Below are positions 4,476 to 63,234 of a DNA stretch of 64,000 nucleotides, piece by piece (the first letter of the stretch is position 1; each line of letters begins with the position of its first letter). The position numbers were made by a program, and so were the translations under genes. The notes below the pieces were generated by a model. That model was not told where the DNA came from. It did no database searches and saw only the letters and a program-made list of their open reading frames with translations. Source of the stretch: Gongronella butleri (lineage: Eukaryota > Mucoromycota > Mucoromycetes > Mucorales > Cunninghamellaceae); assembly GCA_025201375.1 (NCBI GenBank), contig JAIWZP010000018.1:124001-188000 (forward strand), read 5' to 3'.

Positions 4476-4869
4476 AAAGAGAAAAAGAAAAAAAAAGGGC
4501 GAAAAGGGCGACGACCTCTTTTTATTTTGTTCCCACCAGCGGAGCTTCTGGCCAATCATATCGCAGATGATGTCTTCGCTGGCCAATCAAAAGCCCGCTG
4601 CCAGTTCTCTACCTATGGGTACTGTAAAAAAAAAGAGAGAAAAGCGAGCGAGAAAGAGAAGAACAAAAGAAAGCAGGACGCGGTGTCCTTTGAAAATATT
4701 CATGCAGCTTGTGCTCCGCGCGCCTGAGGTGCAACTTGCCCAATCCAGCAACTGTCAATCGGGGTTTGCTCGACTTGCCCCTTTGAGCAGACTCGGTCAA
4801 GAGCTTATTTCATGAACACGGCCTGGTCTGCTTTAACAACTGTACTTTTTCTGAGCTGCTGCGCTCCAC

Positions 4870-18399: not shown

Positions 18400-21340
18400 G
18401 TGTGTGTTAATTTTTGTGTACAATTCTGCTTCACCGGATCCGTTCGAAAGAGAATGAAATTCGAGCTTTCTTCGTTGCAGCAGCGCCATGGCCAACCAGC
18501 AACCGAGAAAATGTACAAAAACATGATTTTCATGATTTTGCTTGGGAATTTACACCACAAATAAAGTGTGTCATCCGTGCATGCATTTCTAGCCTCTCTT
18601 TCGATCGGTGCCATTTTCACCGCGATCCAACAAAATATTTGAGAACGCGTCCTGAATTTGTGGTCAAGAAAGATTTTGGATTCATCTGCGCAAGAGCGCA
18701 ACGACCCGATCGTCGACTCCTGATTTGAACGTCTTGTCAGTCAAAAAGGAGACGCGTCGATTACTTAACTTATGTACAAATGTGAAGCTATCCAACCATG
18801 ATGATTTGAGTGGTGCATAATTCTGTATTTGTAATAATGTCGAATTCACCTGCACAACGATTCAGTCAACCGCTGGTTTTCAACGTCATATTGAAACAAG
18901 GCACGGCAAAATGGTTAGACAGGGTAAAGTTTGAGAGGCAATCAATCATGAGTTGTGTTGGTCATCTATGAATTTGTGATAATTCTTGAAAACGGTGCAT
19001 GTCTCAAAAACGGCCCGATCAACCTCTGTTTTTTTTAATTTTTTATTCCAAGAGAGATGTTGAAATAGAAAAGTGGCAAAGTCTGGCGACAATCGAATCA
19101 TGATTTTGCCGCGAAAAGATTTTTACAAAAACGCGCTAAAGCCAAATATTCAGCAATGTCGTGGTCCCTGACAAACCACACGATTGACCTTTGGGTTTTT
19201 ATTTTTTTCTGAGAAGAGAGGGGCAACATCCACTACATGTAAAAGTTTCGTGGCACTGCGGTGAATCCTTGGTGACGAAATTTTTTTTTTCAAATTTAGA
19301 AAAAAAAAAGTGGATCAGGTCAAAATGCATCTGGAGGGTCCCCCCGCTTTGAGAGGTTCAAGTTCAGACAGTCATCCAAATCCGTTTGGCAACCTACACA
19401 TCAGGGCTTTGAGAGTCATGTAAGCAGATGCATTGGCCCCCTCTTGCTAAGCAAATCTGCAATAAAAATCGGGGGTCGATCAAGCCGTTTTCGAGGAACG
19501 AGCGATTAAAGCCAAATTTTAGAAATTGAAGGTTCTGGATCAGTTTTGGTCGCACGCCGATGAAACTGGGTTCACCCTGCAGAGAATCAAATTCTGCATC
19601 TATTGTCACCGCAGCACGCCGTCCTTTGTCATGCCCATTGCCAGGAAAGCTGAAGTTGAAATGTTTGATTGCGTGTTGCAAGTGTACACAAGTTGTGCAT
19701 CCGCCTTGCCAGGCGGGGGCAAAATGACACTCTTGAGCGTCTCTTTCGACCTGCAAGTTTTGAGCATGGTTGAATAGCAACATGACGCGCTAGAGACAAA
19801 ATTGTGAATTTATGGGGAAATGTTGATTTTCTTGTCAACGGCCGGATCAGCTCCCGGTTTCTACTTTTGTTCTGAAAAGAGAGAGACCGAAATACCCATA
19901 TGTCAAAGTTTCGTGAAGCTGAGGGTACTCGATGGCGCCCCGTGTAGAATTGCAAAAAGTAGGATTTCCACCGATTTTCCAAGGGGTACAGTCACGGATT
20001 TTAAAAGGGTAAAAATTGAATCCTCGGTTCGCCGCGCCATTCAACCACATGGTAGAATGCATACATTTACTGATGAAAATGTCATAATACCCAAGACTCC
20101 ATTGACTGGGTTTCGAGTAAAATGCAATTTGCTTCGTATATTAGCCACAAGACTATCTCGATGAAGACTGGCCGCAGATCCTCGAAACGCGGCTCACTAG
20201 AAAGAGCACGACCTGCTGCGTACGTGACTATCGATGATCACACCAAAAAACGAGTTCCAGACGGAATTGACGCAAACAATTCGTTTGCGTGGCAACTTGG
20301 GTGCGTGAAAAATCGCATCAGCCTTTGATTTTAGCGCGCCTGTTTCAAGTCAAATCCATGCACCTGGAGCCTCTTTTGCTAGTGGACGCGTTGGCGCGGC
20401 TCCAAGGATGCGCCCCTTCGTGCCATTCGTCTGCAAAGTTTAATCTGAAATCACGACTTGCTCGCCAGCCAGCAGGTCAATCTCCCTCTTTTTTGACATG
20501 GTTCGTGGTTTCTCCCTGCGCTTCCTCTTGTGTGCAAGTTTGGAGGGATTCTGGAGACCTATTTTTTCGATTTTGATTTTGGAGCTCTGAGATGGCCAAT
20601 TTTTGATTCGCGCTTGGCGCGCCGTCAGCGCGCTGCAAGTCATCCCATTAGATGCTTTGCCCCCCTGTTTGCTAGTACATCTGGAATAAAAATTACATGT
20701 TGACCAGACCGTTGTCGAGCAAATCGTCATTAAAGATTTTGTTGGAAACGTGGATTTTCTTTGCCAGTTTTGGCCATCCAGCGGTGAAACTGGTCTCATT
20801 CGATAGAGATTCAATGGTTGCGTTCAACATGTAAAAAGCGCTGCTGGATGTTATTCCGGTTGTAGAGAAAATCGAGGCTGAAATTTTTGTTTAATGTTTG
20901 ATCAACTTTTGCAAGCGGGCAAAGTTCGACCATCGGGCGAACAAAATCTAAAAATGACGCCAAGCGCGTCTCTTTTCGATCGGTGCCATTTTTTCTGCGA
21001 TCCGCAAAATAATTTTGAGAGGCCGTAATGGGTTTGCGGGTATGTCAAGATATTTCGAATTCATCTGCACAACGGCTCATTCGACCTCTGGTTTTCAACG
21101 TCTTGTTGAGACAAGGCACAGCGAAATAGTTAAAGAACAAAAGTTGAGAAGCCATAAATGCAAAGGCCCTTTGTGGGGATTTGGTGAGATGGTTTTTTTT
21201 TCAAACTTATAAAAAAAGAATGGGACAGGTCAAATGCATGTGGAGAGTCCATCGCTTTGAGTCCTGAGAGTGGACATGGGACTACAGCAGCGATTTCAAG
21301 AGTTTGTGGAGGGACAAAAGGTGGACGCGTGGAGTTTTTT
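18400..21340 (+). repeat. Degenerate interspersed repeats, copy A (two partial units, plus orientation)
   Basis: Holds at least two rounds of the family's right-hand module (about 19400-19800 and 20640-21130; both carry a block reading ...atctg-aataaaaat...gtcga.ca..ccgtt.tcgag) and one left-hand module (19965-20600, starting gattttccaaggggtacagt). The same words recur at 5.3-6.0, 30.9-31.7, 36.4-37.1, 46.6-47.1, 49.7-50.3 and 63.5-64.0 kb. The 20640-20830 stretch is a clean reference for the interrupted copies near 46.6 and 49.7 kb. The reading frame DFPRGTVTDFKRV is alignable with other copies but is not intact. Limits are approximate. Confidence 0.75.
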
Positions 21341-30239: not shown

Positions 30240-31990
30240 ATGTTTCTTGCATAGGCTGGATGCCAATAAATACATCTGGATTAAAATGTCATACCGGGAC
30301 ACATTTCGGCTCATTGCAGCGCGCCTGATTGGCGACGAACAAGCCAAAATCTGGCTAAAAAGCGACTTCATGAAGGAATCAGTTGAGAAACCTGAAGCGA
30401 ATCGCCCTCAAATTTGATCAAAGTGACGGCGCAGACGAGGCATTATTGACTTAAATTTTTTACAGCAATTGGATGAGTAGATTCAGACTTGAGCTACGCG
30501 GTTGTCAAATCAGGGGCCAATTGTATGCGTTCATCGTCATCATCTGTCGATGGAAATATACAGCATTGTAATTCAAGTCTAACTTCATGTCTGAAGCTAC
30601 CTGACTACGCCGGTGTCACTGTTGTAGCGCTAGTGAATGGCGTGCAATCACAGATTTTCTTGAAAAAAGAACGAAATATCGATTTTTTTGCGATTAAATT
30701 CTCAGAGTCGCATCTGAAAGTGTTGAGTGTGCTTGCTACTTTTCTCTTTTGAATACCAAATGAACTACCGGAGGGCGACAAGTGCAAATTAGAAACAAAG
30801 CGTTCACAATTTCCGCTATTTTACTGTATTTTGGTCTTCTGATAATCCTTTTGCATTTTACGTGGGAATCGGCTGCTTGTACACGCAATTCCGCGCATTC
30901 TCATTCAAATGAGCGCTATCAGGGGGCATTCCAACGACTAGGTGGCAGGTAATCACCATTTTCAAAAATGGCAGATTTTCCAAGGGGTGCAGTCGAAGAT
31001 TTGAAAAGGGTCAAATTTATGTCGTCAGATCGCCACGCCATTCAAACGCATAGTACGCACGTCGCATTCACCGACAGAAACACAATAAAAACCAGGGATA
31101 CATTGGTTGGATTCGGTGAAAATCGCGTTTTAGGTCTTATATTCGCTGCAAGGTCATCTCGAAGCAAATTGCATGTATCTTCGAGAAACTTATATCAACA
31201 GAAAGAGCATGGCTCACTGCATACGTGGACATCTGTGATCGATGAAAAAGTTGATTTTTTGACACTTTTGACGCGGGTCCAAAATCATAGGCAACTTTCG
31301 ACGCGTGAAAAAGCGCGTCAAGCGTCAAGTGACGCGCGTCTGTTCTACATCAGATCTGTGCACCCGGGGAGCCTCTTGCAAGTGGACGCGTCGGCCGGGA
31401 TTAATTGACGCGTTTTTCCTGTGCAATTCGCCTTTGAAATATATTCTTAAATCGCACATTAATCGTCAACCAGCAGATCGACTCCACTCTTTTTCCGTAT
31501 TTTTCGTGGTTTCTCCATGCGTTTCACCATGTGTGTGAGTTTGGCGTGATTCTGCGTACTCATATTTTCGATTGCATCCCGGCTCCTCAAAACGGCCTAT
31601 TTTTTGATTTGCGTGTAGCGCGCCCGCAACGACCCATGCCAGCTGCACGCTTGTTCTACTTGGTGTTCTCTCTGGCCATTTCACGTTACAATGTGTTTTG
31701 TGGTATTACAATACGCTGAATGTCCATCTGCTGCCAAATTTTGCTAAATTTAACATTTTATTGGGCATCTCTGGACAAACATATACAAATGGTCCCCAAA
31801 TCGAAACAGGTGAGAAGAGAGGCAAATCTGCATTTCCAGCACGCCATGGTGATGGTCGAGCTACTAGGGCCCCATTTTATATTAGATGATTTTTTCGTTC
31901 TTGCATGTCGATTTTCTCGCCTCCCCTGCAGTGCAATGTTCAACCGCGCCACCGTACATACCTAACAATTGATGAAGGCATCTCAACCCT
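30240..31990 (+). repeat. Degenerate interspersed repeat, copy B (best-preserved frame)
   Basis: Contains the left module from 30968 (gattttccaaggggtgcagt) with an open frame to 31408. That 146-codon frame begins MADFPRGAVEDLKRVKF, keeps SSDRHAIQTHSTH, and matches frames of copies near 19.97 kb (+) and 37.1 kb (-). The second half (31470-31640) shares the gtggtttctcc.tgcg and gtgtgagtttgg words with 20510-20550 and with 36560 on the minus strand. No start context, intron or domain supports a working gene, so it is treated as repeat. Confidence 0.7.
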
Positions 31991-36199: not shown

Positions 36200-37380
36200 C
36201 ATATTTTCCATTTGCACATGTGGTCACTGGAAAAAGGTTTGCAAGCATTTGAGATCAGCGTCGATCATCCAAGTACAAATTTGGGATCTTGTAGACTAGT
36301 CTCGTCAGAAAGTATTTCAATATTTTTCATTTTTTTCACAGCAACTCAATGTCACTCACCATCCAGATGCTGTAAACGTCCCAAACGCTGTCCGGGCACG
36401 AAACAGCGAGCTAGAAACCTCGAATGGGACTTGTTTCGCAGCGATCAAAAGTCATTGCGGACACGCTACGCGCAAATCAAAAACTGGGCCGCTTTGAGCC
36501 TCCAGGAAGAAATCCAAAGCTTGTGTACGCAGAATCGCACCAAACTTGCACACAAGGTGCATCGCATGACGAAACGACGAAAAAGTGCAAAAAAGGGCGC
36601 GATCGATGTGCTCGTTGGTGAGCAATGAGCGAATTTGGTCTAAACTTTACATGCAATTTTCACCACAAAAATGCGTCGATAAAGCCCGGCCGACACGTCC
36701 ATTTGCAAGAGACTCCCCAGATGCATATATTTGATGTAGAACAGATGCGCGTAACTTGACGCTGGACGCGCTTTTTCGCGCGTCGAAAAATGCCTATGAC
36801 TTTGGGACCACGTCAAAAGTCCAAAGTCAATTTTTTTATAGATCATCCATGTCCACTTACGCAGCAATCCATGCTCTTTCTAATGATATTTGTTTCTCGA
36901 AGATACAGCTACTTTTCGTGATGGCCTTGTAGCGAAAATAAGAACAAAAATGCGATTTTTGCCGAATCTAGCCAATGGATCTCTGGTTTTTATTGCACTT
37001 CTGTCGGTGAATGCGGCGCGTCTACTATGTGGTTGAACGGCGTGGCGGTCTGGGGACCTAAAATTGACCCTTTTCAAATCCTCGACTGTTCCCCTTGGAA
37101 AATCCGTGATTTTTGATCACCGTCCTTGCGCGCCATCTAGTGATCGGAACGCTGCGCGGGTAGGATCATTAGAACGAGAGCCTTGTAAGCGCTGGTCCAA
37201 AGAGCGCTGGCTCTTATATGTCAAAAGTCAAACGAAAAAAGACCAAAAAACAGTAAAAACACTTTATTGGAGATTTTCTCGACAAACGCTTGGTTCATCT
37301 TTATTTAACAGCATTGTAGAAACACGCGGTTGACAAAAGCACAAAAGTCTTAGTAGTGAGGACAGTGAAGCTACTGCCAC
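36200..37380 (-). repeat. Degenerate interspersed repeat, copy C (minus orientation)
   Basis: The minus strand from 37110 reads gattttccaaggggaacagt and matches copies at 19967 (+), 30977 (+) and 6030 (-). The frame MKRVNFRSPDRHAVQPHSRR, with AFTDRSAIKTRDPLARFGKN after it, runs to about 36880. The second half (36730-36390, minus) carries gtgtgcaagtttgg and gcgtagcg words shared with the other copies. It has no intact gene. The aatgcctatgactttgggac segment near 36790 equals the cataggcaactttcg area of copy B in inverse. Confidence 0.72.
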
Positions 37381-45844: not shown

Positions 45845-46518
45845 GCGTTGGTCGGATCAGACGGCGTCGTTTGCTCGGCTTTTCGAGCAAAAGAGTAAAA
45901 TAGAACAAAAAGAAAAGATAAGCGCTAAAAAGGGAGAATGCCAGGAGATCAAAAAGATTGTCTTTTTAACCCCTCAAACGGGTAAAATAATAATCCAGGG
46001 TCCGACGGGCAGGTCCAATTTTGCCATGGGTCAAAGTTGACGCCTGCGCCCCTTGTGCCACACGAATGACTCCCGATGACCGTGGAGAGTCGAAATGACC
46101 CGCCCCAGGGCTGCATGCTCATTGGAGCGCCGCCTCGGCTTGATTTGTCAGGCACACGGTCCCGCCGCCTCGCGTGCGACCCATGAGACGCAGCAGTGAT
46201 ACCGCGTAAATCGCTTGTTTGCCCACTTATGCCCCCCTCCTTTTTGTCATTCAAAAAGTGCACTGACCACCAGCATGTCGAGAACAATCGTTTTGAGTGT
46301 CTTCTGATGCTAAGACGCTACAAGACCTGAAAAAAAAACATTTGCAAAGAAATCTGATTTTCACTATTTTTGCTTTTTTTTTTTTTTTTTTGCTAGGCGA
46401 TCTTTGCAGTTCGTGGCATTGCATTGAGCACGCCTCGGCTCTCGGGCGTTCATTTTGCTGCTTTGGGTCGCTCGCTACGTACCCAGCTTCGTCACCCTGA
46501 CCACCAGCGATTTAAGCG
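45845..46518. other. Gene-free DNA
   Basis: No gene is seen. The region carries the promoter of the Mpv17-family gene and grades into the scarred repeat island that begins at about 46519. Confidence 0.4.
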
Positions 46519-47370
46519 TACAGTATCATATCATATGATAGACGGCCATCATCATGGTGAGACACAATGACAGGTATCAAATCATTCCATTACAGTAGAT
46601 GCTTTCCCCCCCCTTTTTGTAAATCTGGAATAAAAATCGAGAGTCGACCAGGCCTTTGTCGAGCAAATCGTCATTAAATACTGTATTTTGTTGAAAAAGT
46701 GGATTTTCTCTGCGAGTTTTAACCATTCATCGATGAAACTACAGTACTGTACGGTACAGTACTGGTCTCATTCGATAGAGATTCAGCGGGCACTTTCGAC
46801 AAGCTATCATAAAAGTGCCGCGCGTCGTTCTACCGGTTGCCGAAAACATCGAGGTTGAAATTTTTGATATGTTTGAACTGCTTTCACAAGCATACAGAAG
46901 TCACGCATCGGGCAAACTCGCAAACAAATATGATACTGTATTCATGAAATGACGCGGGCGAGCCCGTCTACCGGTAGTTCGAACTTCGAATAATGCAAAT
47001 TTCGTTGCGATCGCAGAAGAATTTAGATAACCTAGAAAGCGCTATAATTTTATGATAAAAATGTTGACATTTCGGAATTACTGTACGATTCATCTTCTGC
47101 TGCACAACGGCTCAACTGGCCTCTGGTTTTCAACATCATCCTCCTCATGCTGAAAAAGACGAGACAAAAGGGCTACAGTATGATACATACTGTATCATAA
47201 TACGGAGTATGATACATTGATACTGTACATACAGTAATTAAGATGATACCTACAGTATACTGTAAATACAGTACGGTACAGTACTGTACAGTACAGTGGT
47301 ACAGTAATATGATAAAGGGGTTTATTTACAGAGGCGAACATTCGATATTCGGCTATGAGTCTACAGTATG
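46519..47370 (+). repeat. Interspersed-repeat copy riddled with TACAGTA/TACTGTA heptamers
   Basis: The backbone matches the right-hand module of copy A (20640-21130): ctggaataaaaat, gtcgagcaaatcgtcatta, ctggttttcaac and others. Into it are set many TA-CAG-TA or TA-CTG-TA words (for example 46519, 46591, 46679, 46740, 46755, 46934, 47089, 47174, 47188, 47221, 47230, 47251, 47258, 47267, 47277, 47282, 47287, 47300 and 47364) and TATGATA/TATCATA words (46524, 46529, 46534, 46929, 47051, 47179, 47193, 47208, 47308). At 46588 the clean word cattagatgc reads catTACAGTAgatgc. Interpretation is in the findings. Confidence 0.8.
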
Positions 47371-48167
47371 TCTCTATGTTTTTCAAACTTTGTCGGTCTA
47401 TCGTGCTTCCAGAATTTTTTTTACAGCCTGCTCGCCCACTAGTGAAACTTGGGTCACGGCATAATAAGCTATGATATGGCCAGTGCTCGAGACGAAACTG
47501 CCCGATTTTTTTTGCACTCGAAAATGCCAAAAATTTCCTGTTTGTACTGTTTCGCATCCATCCGTCTATCTGCATGATTGATCCCGCTCAAAAATTACCG
47601 CGACGAATTCAGCGCAAAATTTGCAGCAAAAAAGCTTAAACGCCCAAAGCGCTACGACCACTTTTGAAAAATTCAGGGGTCACTCAGGGGTCATTCAGGG
47701 GTCACACATTTCATTCTCAGAAAATTCTGGGAAATGTCGTCGAACTCCGCGTGATCAATGCATCCCAAACAGGTAACTCCGACGATTTGCTATTGGCTGA
47801 CAAAATGGCAGGTCGCCCCAACTCTCGAAAAATGCCCAAAGGATGACGCATGAACGGCGATCGACTGAGAAAAAGTGCCTACTTCGGGCAAGATTTTTTT
47901 TGCAAAATTTAAGGTTTGACACTTCCAAATTAAGGTGCGTGGATTGCATGGAATTTTTATTTTTTTTGGTATGATATGCACATTAGTCTCAGATTTTCTG
48001 GAACTCAATATTTTAAGATTAGATTTTAAAATTGAATTTTACACATATAAAAAATGGAATTGCACATCTAAAATGCATTTCAGATCAATTATTTAAAATT
48101 TAAAATTGAATTTAAGTTATTTAAAAATTGATCTCGTTGTACTGTTTATGTGTAAATTGCAATAATA
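47371..48167. other. Gene-free, increasingly AT-rich DNA
   Basis: No gene. 47680-47705 carries three near-identical copies of ggggtcactca/ttcag. From about 47930 the base composition becomes strongly AT-rich, leading into the ORF at 48168. Confidence 0.45.
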
Positions 48168-48431
48168 ATGGAAAGTATAAATGATAAATTTAAAGCAAAT
48201 ATAAAAAGAAACATATTAGTTAAAAACATGAAAAAGTTCAACATTCAAGAATATAAAATAAAACAAAAAAATGGAACCTTTGAAATTTTTATGAAGATCA
48301 TGGATTCTAATAAAAGATTAAAGAAAGTGTATGAATTTACGCCTTATATAAAGAAAAATAAAAATAAAAGAAAATTGCATTTTGATGATGTTGAAACAAT
48401 AAAAATATTAAAAAAAATGAAGATAGAATAA
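48168..48431 (+). CDS. AT-rich lysine-rich ORF of unknown origin, 87 aa
   Basis: A complete frame, MESINDKFKANIKRNILVKN through FTPYIKKNKNKRKLH to ILKKMKIE and a TAA stop. Nearly every third codon position is A or T, and the protein is about one quarter lysine with many I and N. All confirmed genes in the window use mainly G or C in third position, so this frame is unlike its neighbours. It sits in an AT-rich stretch (about 47930-48560) just left of the foldback transposon. No domain is recognised. Possibilities are a fragment of organellar, plasmid, viral or other foreign DNA, or chance: in such AT-rich DNA a frame of this length is not impossible. Function unknown. Confidence 0.35.
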   Translation: MESINDKFKANIKRNILVKNMKKFNIQEYKIKQKNGTFEIFMKIMDSNKRLKKVYEFTPYIKKNKNKRKLHFDDVETIKILKKMKIE

Positions 48432-48643
48432 TATAATTTAGTTAAAAAATATTGAGTTAATGGCTACTATAGGCCTAACGTATAGTTGATGGTTCTATAA
48501 TGAACTTTTTTATGTGAGATCTATCAGCATATTGGAATTTTTTTTTTATTATTTTGCACATTTTTGTGCGCTGATGATGAGTGGACTGCAGCCTGGTAAA
48601 ATGACCGATGCAAAATTTTAAAACCCAACGATCAAGTACAGTA

Positions 48644-49060
48644 CAGTGCCCGGACAAAAAAAAGTTTCGCTGTGCATAATTCTCTGCAGTGCAAGGTATC
48701 AATTAATCGCGTTAATCTCTGCTGTATTGATCAATAATGGCTCCAGTGATATGAAATTTTGCAGGAACAATGATTTAAAAGTAAAAAAGCAATTCTAAAA
48801 TTATGAAATGGCTATGCCAAGCGGGTATTGAAATAGATCAAAAAAGGGATACCTGACGCGTCACGCGACGCGACGCGTACCTACGCGTATACAATGGCCT
48901 GTGGAGATGAATTGACGTTATGAACACCATCTCCAATTTTTTTGCAACGAGTGCAATGATGCCTAATTGTATTTTAAGAATCAATTCCATGTTACATGCA
49001 TTGCATCGGTGCTGTGATCGAATAATGTAAAATCATCATGTGACACGCTTCACGCGTCAG
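48644..49060 (+). repeat. Left arm of the foldback element
   Basis: Inverted partner of 49230-49650. Reads CAGTGCCCGG inward to cacgcgtcag. Relative to the right arm it lacks three bases near 49002 and one near 49033, and has t for g within the last 15 bases. Confidence 0.9.
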
Positions 49061-49229
49061 TTGCATCTGGAATAACAATTGCCATCTCTGTTATCTAATT
49101 TTAATCCCTAGTTGGCTTAAAACCATTGTACTTATTTAATTTGAAGGACTAGAATAGACTGTTATCGATTGGTTGACCAGTAGGAGCACTACGACCATGT
49201 TACGAAGGAAATCGCGACTTTTGACGCGT

Positions 49230-49650
49230 CTGACGCGTGACGCGTGTCACATGATGAATTTTACATTATTCGATCACAGCACCGATGCTGCAATGCATGT
49301 AACATGGAATTGATTCTTAAAATACAATTAGGCATCATTGCACTCGTTGCAAAAAAATTGGAGATGGTGTTCATAACGTCAATTCATCTCCACAGGCCAT
49401 TGTATACGCGTAGGTACGCGTCGCGTCGCGTGACGCGTCAGGTATCCCTTTTTTGATCTATTTCAATACCCGCTTGGCATAGCCATTTCATAATTTTAGA
49501 ATTGCTTTTTTACTTTTAAATCATTGTTCCTGCAAAATTTCATATCACTGGAGCCATTATTGATCAATACAGCAGAGATTAACGCGATTAATTGATACCT
49601 TGCACTGCAGAGAATTATGCACAGCGAAACTTTTTTTTGTCCGGGCACTG
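49230..49650 (-). repeat. Right arm of the foldback element
   Basis: Reverse complement of 48644-49060 with two small indels and one substitution. Its outer end reads ccgggCACTG and is followed by TA. Confidence 0.9.
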
Positions 49651-49679
49651 TACAGTACTGTACTGTAACAACGCGCTGC

Positions 49680-50570
49680 TACAGTATTCATCCCATTAGA
49701 TGCTTTGTCTCCTGTTTGTTCGTATGATAAATCTTCTGGAATAAAAAATATCACAAATCGGTAAGAAGGCGGCGGTTCTCGAGAAAATCGCCATTTACTA
49801 TAAGAAATCGTTGAAAAAAGCCGCTTTCTCCTCCGTCAGTATTGATCAGATCGCGGTGCAACTTGTTTCATTCGAGATTCGACAGAGATTCAGCAGCTGC
49901 ATTTGACACGTTGAAAAAAGCACTGTTGGTTCTTTTTTCTGTCGAGTTGTCGAGAAAAGCGAGTTTGAAAATTTATCCAGTGTTTGATCGACTTTTGCAA
50001 GCATGCAAAGTTCGTCCTCCATCGGGCACACAAACAATCTGAAAATGACACGCAAGTGCGTCTCTTTCGATCGATGCCATTTTCACCGCGATCCACAAAT
50101 TATCATATATTTATTTCGAGACCCTGTGCTATGATACGGTATCATACCGGTACGTAGGTAAATGATATCATAAAAAAAGTCGTGAAAATAACGGCATTTT
50201 GCAGGATTCATCTGCACAAAAAAACCAACAAGCTGACCTCTTCTGGTTTTTATCATAAAAGTTTGTATCATATGATACTGTAATAGGAAATGTAAAGTAC
50301 ACTCGTCAACAGCAGCCCAATCATTTCGTGAACACCAAGGTGCACTTCTTGACGAAAGGCTGATCGGTGATCGCCCTTGTGCCTTTTATTTTTTTGTAGG
50401 GTATGGTACTGTATGTACTGTATGAAAAGAGAAGCCAATGAAATAGCAAAGTGGAAGTGTTTTGCGGTGATCCAATCATGATTATACAGTACCTACCACA
50501 AAAAACGAAAAACGCAAAAGGTACTGTATCATACTGTACTTTGGCTTTGAGCAGTTCAGAGACGCGCTTT
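49680..50570 (+). repeat. Second scarred interspersed-repeat copy
   Basis: Matches copy A right module (20630-21130): catcccattagatgc, ctggaataaaaa, gagattcagcag, gcgtctctttcgatcgatgcc, gattcatctgcaca. Heptamers TACAGTA/TACTGTA occur at 49680, about 50276, 50404, 50413, 50486, 50523 and 50533, and TATGATA/TATCATA types are frequent (for example about 49733, 50131, 50142, 50266, 50271). Compared with the copy near 46.6 kb, the scars lie at different sites. Confidence 0.75.
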
Positions 50571-50744
50571 TCAGGTGTCATTCGCCCGACAATCAAAGGC
50601 GCGCGGGAAGAGCGCAAAAAAAAAAAAACCAAGACGAATGAGCTGTATGCGACGTGCGGGTACACCATGGCCTCGAATCATAGATGTAACGACAGGGTCG
50701 GTCATTGGATCAATCAATGTCAGAACTGGTTCATGTGATGCGTT

Positions 50745-61758: not shown

Positions 61759-63234
61759 ATGTACACGTTTTACACTCCCAACCATGACCCATCCTTTTGC
61801 ACCGATTCCAAAAAGAACAAAAACATGACAAGCAACAATAGCACCATCTCGCCGCGACCTGTGCCACTGCACATTGATACGCATTCACTGGGCATCCGCC
61901 TGACGTCGCCGCCCAATGATGCCACGGACGTCATCGGTGCGCTGCCACCCGCGCCTTCTGATGCATCAATGGCTGGGCCTTCTCACCAGCATCCTCATCA
62001 TCATCAATATCATCATCATCATCATACACCACACCCAACACCGCCGCCCTCTGTGGCCACCTCGCCCAACCAAGGCGCACCGACGTTCATGTCCATGAAT
62101 GCCGTTCAATCGCCATCCATGTCCACGTCGTCTTTTTCGTCGTCGTCGTCGGCGTCATCCTCATCCTCACCTTCGCCTTCATCGTCTGCAACATCGACGC
62201 CTGCGCAGACTTACCAGGTCACAAGGCGCAAATCGATCCTCAATCGCAAATCTGGCAGCAATGTCACGTCGCCCGTCACTTGTCAATCGTGGGATCACTT
62301 GGCATCACCCGCAGCCTCTTTTCTTGCCAGCTTTGCGTCGCCTGGTGCGTCATTGGGCGGCATCAATGCATCTGCACCTCTTCTCGAGGAGCAGACCGGC
62401 GATGAAATCGACGATTATGTGATGAATGAGATCATTGGCTATGGAGGGTCGTCGACTGTTCGCAAGGGCTACAGCATCAGCCATGGCCAGCACGTTGCCA
62501 TTAAAATTGTCAAGCGCAGCCATCAAGACGCTCTGGAGCGCGAATTGGCTGTCTGGGCGCCATTGTCACATCCGAACATTTTGCGCCTGCACAAGGTCCT
62601 CGAAACCGACAATGCCACCTATGTCGTGAGCGATTATTGCCCCGAAACGCTGCTGCGGCGCCTGCAACGCGATGTCCATGGCATTCCGCAAGAAACTAAA
62701 AAGCGCTGGTTCGGCCAATTGCTTTCTGCTGTCCATTATTTGCACGACCAATGCCACGTCGTCCACAAGGACATTAAGCTCGACAATATCCTGCTCGATC
62801 AGGACGACAATATCAAATTGTGCGACTTTGGCTTGGCCATGCATCGCCATCACATGACCCCGCCTCATCTGCAAGTCAACAACAATGACCCCGGCCTCTG
62901 CAGCCTGAAGGATGACAAGGACATGGCCCACCAGCCCATCCCGGGCTCGTTGTGCTACTGCTCGCCCGAGCAACTCGCCGCACGCCAAGAACTCACGTGC
63001 CCAAAGACTGACGTCTGGGCCATTGGTGTCGTGTTGTACGCCATGTTTGCCGGCCGCCTCCCCTTTGATGACGAGTACGATTTGCGCCTCCGCCAGGCCA
63101 TCCTTGACGCCAATTATACCATTCCGGACGCCTTTTCCAACGACGTTGCCGATCTCGTCCGCCATTGCCTCGTCAAGGACCCTGCAAACCGCTTTTCCAT
63201 GCAACAAATTTTCGCTCACCCTTGGCTGGCTTAG
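61759..63234 (+). CDS. Serine/threonine protein kinase, 491 aa, intronless
   Basis: A long disordered N-terminus (residues 1-215) has a His-rich stretch (HQHPHHHQYHHHHH) and a Ser run. The kinase domain (about 217-491) has a glycine loop IGYGGSSTVRKGY, catalytic lysine in VAIKIVK, catalytic loop VVHKDIKLDNILL (HKD in place of the usual HRD), DFGLA, activation-segment end CYCSPEQL (SPE in place of APE), DVWAIGVVLYAMFAGRLPFD and a closing RFSMQQIFAHPWLA. All catalytic residues are present, so it should be active. The subfamily is unclear; it resembles the CAMK/SNF1-like branch. An alternative start is the Met at 61825. Substrates are unknown. Confidence 0.88.
   Translation: MYTFYTPNHDPSFCTDSKKNKNMTSNNSTISPRPVPLHIDTHSLGIRLTSPPNDATDVIGALPPAPSDASMAGPSHQHPHHHQYHHHHHTPHPTPPPSVATSPNQGAPTFMSMNAVQSPSMSTSSFSSSSSASSSSSPSPSSSATSTPAQTYQVTRRKSILNRKSGSNVTSPVTCQSWDHLASPAASFLASFASPGASLGGINASAPLLEEQTGDEIDDYVMNEIIGYGGSSTVRKGYSISHGQHVAIKIVKRSHQDALERELAVWAPLSHPNILRLHKVLETDNATYVVSDYCPETLLRRLQRDVHGIPQETKKRWFGQLLSAVHYLHDQCHVVHKDIKLDNILLDQDDNIKLCDFGLAMHRHHMTPPHLQVNNNDPGLCSLKDDKDMAHQPIPGSLCYCSPEQLAARQELTCPKTDVWAIGVVLYAMFAGRLPFDDEYDLRLRQAILDANYTIPDAFSNDVADLVRHCLVKDPANRFSMQQIFAHPWLA

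Follow-up and report, generated by a model that had tools for sequence, protein, structure and literature searches.

Excision footprints of Tc1/mariner elements in Gongronella butleri as probable landing sites of a DD34E transposon clade

A 64,000-nucleotide stretch of the genome of the fungus Gongronella butleri (contig JAIWZP010000018.1, positions 124001-188000, G000:C21 in our numbering; hereafter the window) contains a field of short TA-NNN-TA words surrounding a non-autonomous transposable element. According to their middle triplet, these words were sorted into the classes CWG (TACAGTA/TACTGTA), TSA (TATCATA/TATGATA) and CSG (TACCGTA/TACGGTA). Our data make it very probable that the field consists of densely packed excision footprints, or scars, left by several Tc1/mariner families, and that a DD34E clade preferring CWG-TA-CWG as target lands on these scars. 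This clade would comprise the CAGTGCCCGG family together with its miniature inverted-repeat transposable element (MITE), the CAGTGCCCTAGC family and the CCGTACCC family. In the window, the MITE is a 1,007-bp element of foldback type at 48644-49650 with the ends CAGTGCCCGG..CCGGGCACTG and inverted-repeat arms of about 390 bp or more. Genome-wide (33.0 Mb in 110 contigs), 40 near-full-length copies were scored with 97-100% identity, and such near-identical copies suggest recent activity. An initial annotation of the window had placed a CAG...CTG-ended element at 48644, and TACAGTA is indeed found on both sides of it, at 48637-48643 and 49651-49657. Of the element's target, CAG-TA-CAG, the left half is supplied by the word at 48637-48643 (forward strand) and the right half by the scar chain TACAGTACTGTACTGTA (CAG,CTG,CTG) at 49651-49667.

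The same annotation had reported about thirty TACAGTA or TACTGTA words between 46519 and 50540 and only few elsewhere. Counting on both strands gave 36 such words in the window, compared to a mean of 1.26 and a maximum of 5 in 100 dinucleotide-preserving shuffles. Of these, 31 lie at 46519-50538, and the remaining five are found at 4620, 13361 (previously given as about 13371), 30822, 54960 and 61329. When all 32 TA-NNN-TA classes were counted in two scar-rich stretches, 46501-47400 and 49641-50560, we observed 30 CWG, 19 TSA and 3 CSG words, and the other 29 classes occurred at most once each. In the 59.3 kb of the window outside 46001-50700, TATCATA/TATGATA occurred five times and TACCGTA/TACGGTA was absent. 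Genome-wide, with both strands added, TACAGTA was counted 16,213 times versus 6,355 times for the reversed word, TATGATA 9,529 versus 1,031 times, and TACAGTACTGTA at 463 sites versus 2 for its control. A 262-kb sample consisting of 20 MITE-centred loci and the window contained 440 CWG, 210 TSA and 36 CSG words, where dinucleotide composition predicts 7.4, 13.8 and 6.9, respectively. Some further classes were mildly raised in this sample, for example TAAAATA (107 versus 33.2 expected) and TAATGTA (53 versus 16.5), and unmasked MITE copies may contribute to this excess. The genomic excess of TACAGTA amounts to about 10,000 words by the reversed-word control and to about 15,000 by the dinucleotide expectation in the scar-rich sample, a difference that arises because the reversed control word is frequent too. 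The shuffles and the genome-wide reversed-word counts rule out a chance origin of the heptamers. The three scar classes are genome-wide and are not limited to the field. The earlier picture of a single local hotspot is therefore not upheld, the host repeat being merely one place that carries scars. Likewise, the idea of footprints of one CAG-ended type captured the real CWG class and missed the TSA and CSG classes and the involvement of several element families.

To see what the words replace, copies of the repeats adjoining fetched MITE copies were compared; these repeats are diverged, with about 64-84% identity in the alignments. (Stretches fetched from the genome are named L0xx, with positions after the colon local to the stretch.) A single TA in one copy often stands opposite TA-NNN-TA in another. 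An indel screen that was blind to the words found 30 sites at which a 5-bp indel duplicates TA: TACWGTA at 19, TATSATA at 8, TACSGTA at 1 and other words at 2 sites, so that 28 of the 30 sites belong to the three classes. The next most frequent duplicated dinucleotides among 5-bp indels were AC (9) and AA (6), and TA-duplicating indels of 4 bp and 6 bp numbered 9 and 0, respectively. Five of seven TA-duplicating 10-bp indels were two-unit chains, and the single 15-bp indel was the chain CAG,TGA,CGG, which in L022 stands in place of one TA in the homologs. At single-unit scar sites a homolog exactly 5 bp shorter was found in 33 of 67 cases, compared to 3 of 51 for other TA-NNN-TA words and 9 of 122 for arbitrary 7-mers. 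A homolog exactly 10 bp shorter was present at 6 of 10 two-unit sites, and one shorter by the full chain at one of three three-unit sites and at none of one four-unit site. Regarding polarity, 238 homolog states at 28 scar sites comprised 191 with at most four bases (122 with exactly two, which in diverged copies are not always TA), 16 scarred and 31 other states. Since most homolog states are unscarred, the scar is mostly the derived state. At L011:3720, different copies read CTG, TCA or CAG. The repeat word that had been proposed as a direct test behaved as anticipated: it is clean at 20646 and 49694 and scarred at 46588, where TACAGTA occupies 46591-46597 on the forward strand, and the homologous position reads TACTGTA in L025 and L023. 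Taken together, the alignments support the proposal that the heptamers behave as Tc1/mariner-type excision footprints, in which TA would become TA-NNN-TA with CWG, TSA or CSG as NNN.

Based on the known chemistry of Sleeping Beauty, the transposase would leave 3-nt 3′ overhangs on excision. Like triplets with pairable outer bases (CAG, CCG, TGA or TCA) could then be joined into an odd palindrome with one central mismatch, such that CAG ends should give TACWGTA, CCG ends TACSGTA and TGA/TCA ends TATSATA. A mismatched central base of the overhangs would explain why all three classes are odd palindromes. The initial annotation had called for a transposase source elsewhere in the genome, and PF13358 gave 74 matches. 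Among them is a CAG-ended, 1,334-bp element of the CAGTGCCCGG family with an open transposase frame and CAGTGCCCGGACAA ends (L023:5406-6739, corresponding to C28:217705-219038). The CAGTGCCCGGACAA ends are common to the autonomous element and the MITE, and the MITE end matches over 44-47 bp at C28:217699-217745. The L023 transposase carries the Pfam domains DDE_3 and HTH_Tnp_Tc3_2; in the PDB, Sleeping Beauty was its sole match at an E-value of 1e-5 (E 2.9e-29). The transposases of L023, L044, L045 and L047 match PF13358 and PF01498 above the cut-offs. Residues D145, D242 and E277 are invariant in an alignment of seven frames, in which the triad is only partly covered by L047, which stops early, and by L048, which begins late; by numbering, 34 residues separate D242 and E277, which corresponds to DD34E. 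TA is found on both sides of the MITE in 25 of 25 copies, and a single TA stands at the unoccupied homolog of the L020 site, indicating TA duplication. On these sequence features, the elements are assigned to the Tc1/mariner superfamily and its Tc1 (DD34E) group. CCG/CGG and TGA/TCA ends had been predicted from the scar classes beforehand, and CCG-ended elements were then found in L044 (1,630 bp), L045, L046 and L050; these families fit the CSG class. PF01359 (Transposase_1, mariner proper) had no match in the genome and none in the control genomes either. PF03184 (DDE_1, pogo group) had three genome matches, each with internal stop codons; two of these copies carry CAGTAGG-type ends and may have contributed TACWGTA words in the past. 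Two further DDE_3 families were observed. One (L031-L033) is flanked on both sides by long arrays of tandem repeats of about 20-21 bp, and its ends could not be placed. The other (L036-L040, early family C) occurs in identical copies with CTGGATTTGTCC ends, as read from just one of the ends; a number of its loci are shortened, apparently by contig ends, and its position is perhaps subtelomeric.

The choice of target was assessed from the sequences bordering the elements, which the initial annotation had not used and which, unlike the chains, give good evidence that elements inserted into old footprints. All 25 copies of the MITE from the window and the fetched loci, three of them diverged (76-81%), sit at CNG-TA ... 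TA-CNG. CWG is present on 48 of 50 sides and CGG on the other two (L015, L026). The complete word TACNGTA is found on 46 of 50 sides; two of the incomplete sides are at a neighbouring element in L015, one is at such an element in L023, and one in L024 has no outer TA. Genome-wide, CWG-TA precedes 122 of 130 TACAGTGCCCGGACAAAA ends, which belong to the CAGTGCCCGG family. In the related, CCG-ended CCGTACCC family, CWG was found at 15 of 15 listed ends, and both copies in hand of the CAGTGCCCTAGC family are flanked by CWG. The unrelated CCGTGGCTCTCA family showed CWG at one of nine listed ends. For the CCGTACCC, CCGTGGCTCTCA and CTGGATTTGTCC families, the end listings cover those sites whose third base ahead of the TA is C, G or T. 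In the background, CWG occurs at 7.7% of TA sides, or 9.5% under the same first-base condition, and on both sides at 84 of 8,256 TAs. The p-values for the end preference assume independent ends, an assumption that paired ends and related copies break; for this reason we rely on the raw fractions. Landing of the CAGTGCCCGG family on scars is shown by these fractions as a statistical fact. Transposase identity to this family is 69% for the CAGTGCCCTAGC family, 47-50% for the CCGTACCC family and its relatives and 26% for the CCGTGGCTCTCA family, and together with the end flanks this indicates that the CWG preference follows the clade. Two elements have one TA in common in L015 and again in L023, where an autonomous element and a MITE are involved; such sharing is to be expected if elements can likewise insert at the CTG-TA of an element end. 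A short element with CCGGTGTTGTG-like ends was observed at L010:4275, L018:9075 and L022:6830, with CWG-TA flanks in L010 and L018, and may also belong to the elements that land on scars. At C15:67712-68726, C32:144477-145491, C56:759239-760254 and C66:157515-158528, two CCGTACCC ends face each other at a distance of roughly 1 kb. These pairs are too short for the autonomous form of 1.35 kb and probably represent MITEs of that family.

A different view of the flanks would be that the heptamers travel with the element, whose true ends would then be CWGTACAGTGCCC and which would bring TACWGTA on both sides. The presence of the words at 25 of 25 copies and the single TA in the empty homologs of the L020 insertion (in L024 and L010) are compatible with this. 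The middle base, however, is A or T regardless of copy identity and side. Among 46 complete pairs from the first 100 listed places, the left and right middle bases were A/A in 12, T/T in 17, A/T in 6 and T/A in 11 cases, and even MITE copies with 100% identity differ in this base. Element-borne flanks would be inherited; variation between near-identical copies thus indicates that the scars preceded the insertions. In addition, CGG, a neighbouring element end (L015, L023) or the lack of an outer TA on some sides, and flanking chains of one to about five units, speak against travelling flanks, which we consider very unlikely. For the L020 lineage itself, either two scars arose and the element followed, or element and flanks arrived together; the variable middle base favours the former order. 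Neighbouring CWG pairs in unoccupied chains were direct in 29, CAG-CTG in 20 and CTG-CAG in 13 cases, compared to 29, 6 and 11 for occupied pairs, a moderate difference. Replication slippage would derive the words from degenerate pentanucleotide repeats, (TACNG)n, involving no transposition. Chains do have a period of five, and a few long ones are pure tandems, for example (TATGA)5 in L016 and four CAG units in a row in L043. On the other hand, 452 of 558 chains are single scars, which arise at a solitary TA that offers no unit for slippage; a strong increase in the field is seen for just three of the 32 TA-NNN-TA classes; and the mixed chain in L022 replaces one TA. As an overall explanation slippage is highly improbable; it is largely refuted for single scars and possible for the pure long tandems. 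Finally, the words are clustered, odd-palindromic and numerous, which would suit a regulator's binding sites or parts of a functional repeat, for example a centromere. That homologous copies mostly lack the word at the same place, and that words of several classes come and go at the same sites as 5-bp insertions at TA, makes such a function hardly credible.

A more serious objection concerns what is recognized. Structural reasons could account for a preference of the clade for the octamer CWGTACWG as such, in which case the match to footprints would be a coincidence with no evolutionary meaning. Consistent with this, elements also adjoin element ends, where CTG-TA is not a scar, and CWG (48 of 50 sides) is slightly more constant than the outer TA (46 of 50), which is present on 184 of 216 sides (85%) of unoccupied CWGTACWG anyway. 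Conversely, CWGTACWG lies mostly in scar chains (outer TA on both sides in 81 of 108 unoccupied cases), and CWG is the exact residue of the CAG-ended family. We find a purely structural preference arguable and rather doubtful. The targeting itself stands in either case, and only its evolutionary reading is disputed. Footprint targeting by the clade, as proposed here, also has to be weighed against a number of observations. The sample of fetched loci is MITE-centred and not random. CWGTACWG sites that lack outer TAs are rare (5 of 108), so that recognition of scars and of eight bases cannot be told apart. The CTGGATTTGTCC family, although unrelated, has CWG at three of seven listed ends. For TSA, the second commonest class, no TGA/TCA-ended element was found among inverted repeats, repeated words and the DDE_3, DDE_1 and Transposase_1 families, with the ends of L031-L033 and L034 unplaced. 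Chains of at least two units numbered 85, whereas simulated random reuse of TAs gave 98, 91 and 86 with bins of 250, 500 and 1000 bases, respectively. Simple self-feeding by CAG-ended elements predicts long chains rich in CWG, and no enrichment of CWG over single scars was seen (p 0.79).

Because local scar density explains chains of at least two units, their number was dropped as proof of hotspot reuse, and no preference for scars in general is claimed. The initial annotation had taken the chains to imply repeated insertion into older footprints; this holds at most for the long ones, which are in small excess (at least three units, 33 observed versus 27, 22 and 19 simulated with the same bins; at least five, 8 versus 2.3, 1.5 and 1.2), and some of these could be due to slippage. 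With these reservations, the following course of events can be envisaged. Seeder families would target ordinary TAs, leaving single scars behind, and neighbouring or repeated scars would create CWG-TA-CWG. This sequence occurs here mostly within footprint chains, so the specialist clade would land on its own scars or on those of other families. Departing CAG-ended members would make a further landing site, each visit being expected to add one CWG unit and one target. An element that multiplies its own targets is plausible on this basis. On this reading, the clade may be a Tc1-type lineage specialised on the product of excision repair, for which scars are self-built, safe landing sites and a chain records visits. 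We put the reading as a whole forward tentatively, as slightly less likely than not.

Within the window, the first scar-rich stretch (46519-47368) contains 20 TACAGTA/TACTGTA words in addition to TATCATA/TATGATA and TACGGTA, with chains starting at 46519 (CAG,TCA,TCA,TGA), 46740 (CAG,CTG,CGG,CAG) and 47267 (CAG,CGG,CAG,CTG,CAG). The second (50266-50538) contains six TACAGTA/TACTGTA words and TATCATA/TATGATA. The diverged interspersed host repeat lies on the forward strand in two parts, at 46578-46917 (68-79% identity to other copies) and at 47376-47968 (69-83% identity to copies adjoining fetched MITE loci). In a second copy at 49688-50103, most of the TA sites that bear scars in the first copy are clean, and in a further copy at 20640-21011 the TA corresponding to the scar at 46591 is clean; both copies are on the forward strand. 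Inside the host repeat, an AT-rich insert of about 574 bp (47959-48532) is absent from 13 homologous alignments; its 87-residue frame at 48168-48428 has no Pfam match and no homolog at an E-value of 0.01. Three 11-bp tandem units of the TCAGGGGTCAC type are located at 47671-47708, and 11-bp indels are common among host-repeat copies, so that the unit number varies. Elsewhere, a diverged inverted repeat has arms of about 700 bp each at 30899-31633 and 36451-37179, about 5 kb apart, and a kinase frame at 61759-63231 has its closest proteins in Mucorales, with named matches in Absidia and Chlamydoabsidia (56-59% identity over 69%). Rfam and tRNA scans of the window gave no matches.

A footprint is commonly regarded as the final trace of a transposon at a given site. 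With thousands of scars of three classes in one genome, past excisions become countable per site and per family. If confirmed, the preference would provide a natural and strict eight-base target for a DD34E transposase, useful for studying or steering integration, and landing on old scars would be a way for elements to avoid genes. If the evolutionary reading is true as well, scars would not be dead remains, and the system would represent niche construction by a mobile element at the scale of single base triplets. In the open-licence part of the literature, we found no description of the target rule of the CAGTGCCCGG/CCGTACCC clade or of any element that uses footprint chains as a general target.

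The closest known parallels share single features with the system described here. For Sleeping Beauty, TAC(A/T)GTA is given as the excision footprint (PMC3432063), footprints are stated to equal the 3′ overhangs and to be joined by non-homologous end joining (PMC7827188), and ATATATAT is reported as the preferred target, as it is for the related ZB (PMC7913693). The heptamers and CAG-type ends are the same, and the catalytic domain is related in sequence. In contrast, G. butleri carries thousands of natural scars of several classes in a fungal genome, and the target is CWGTACWG instead of ATATATAT. The domains (PF13358 and PF01498), DD34E spacing, TA duplication and inverted repeats agree with the Tc1 family, whereas the target preference of the CAGTGCCCGG/CCGTACCC clade is unusual for it. 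The nearest precedent found is that of the Stowaway MITEs in intron 4 of the beta-amylase gene of Triticeae, which are described in PMC1925063 as inserted at one TA, either inside an older footprint or beside it, with multiple gains and losses. As in G. butleri, Tc1/mariner-type MITEs are enclosed there in TA...GTA footprints at one site. That account, in the part consulted, concerns one site across species and contains no genome-wide target rule.

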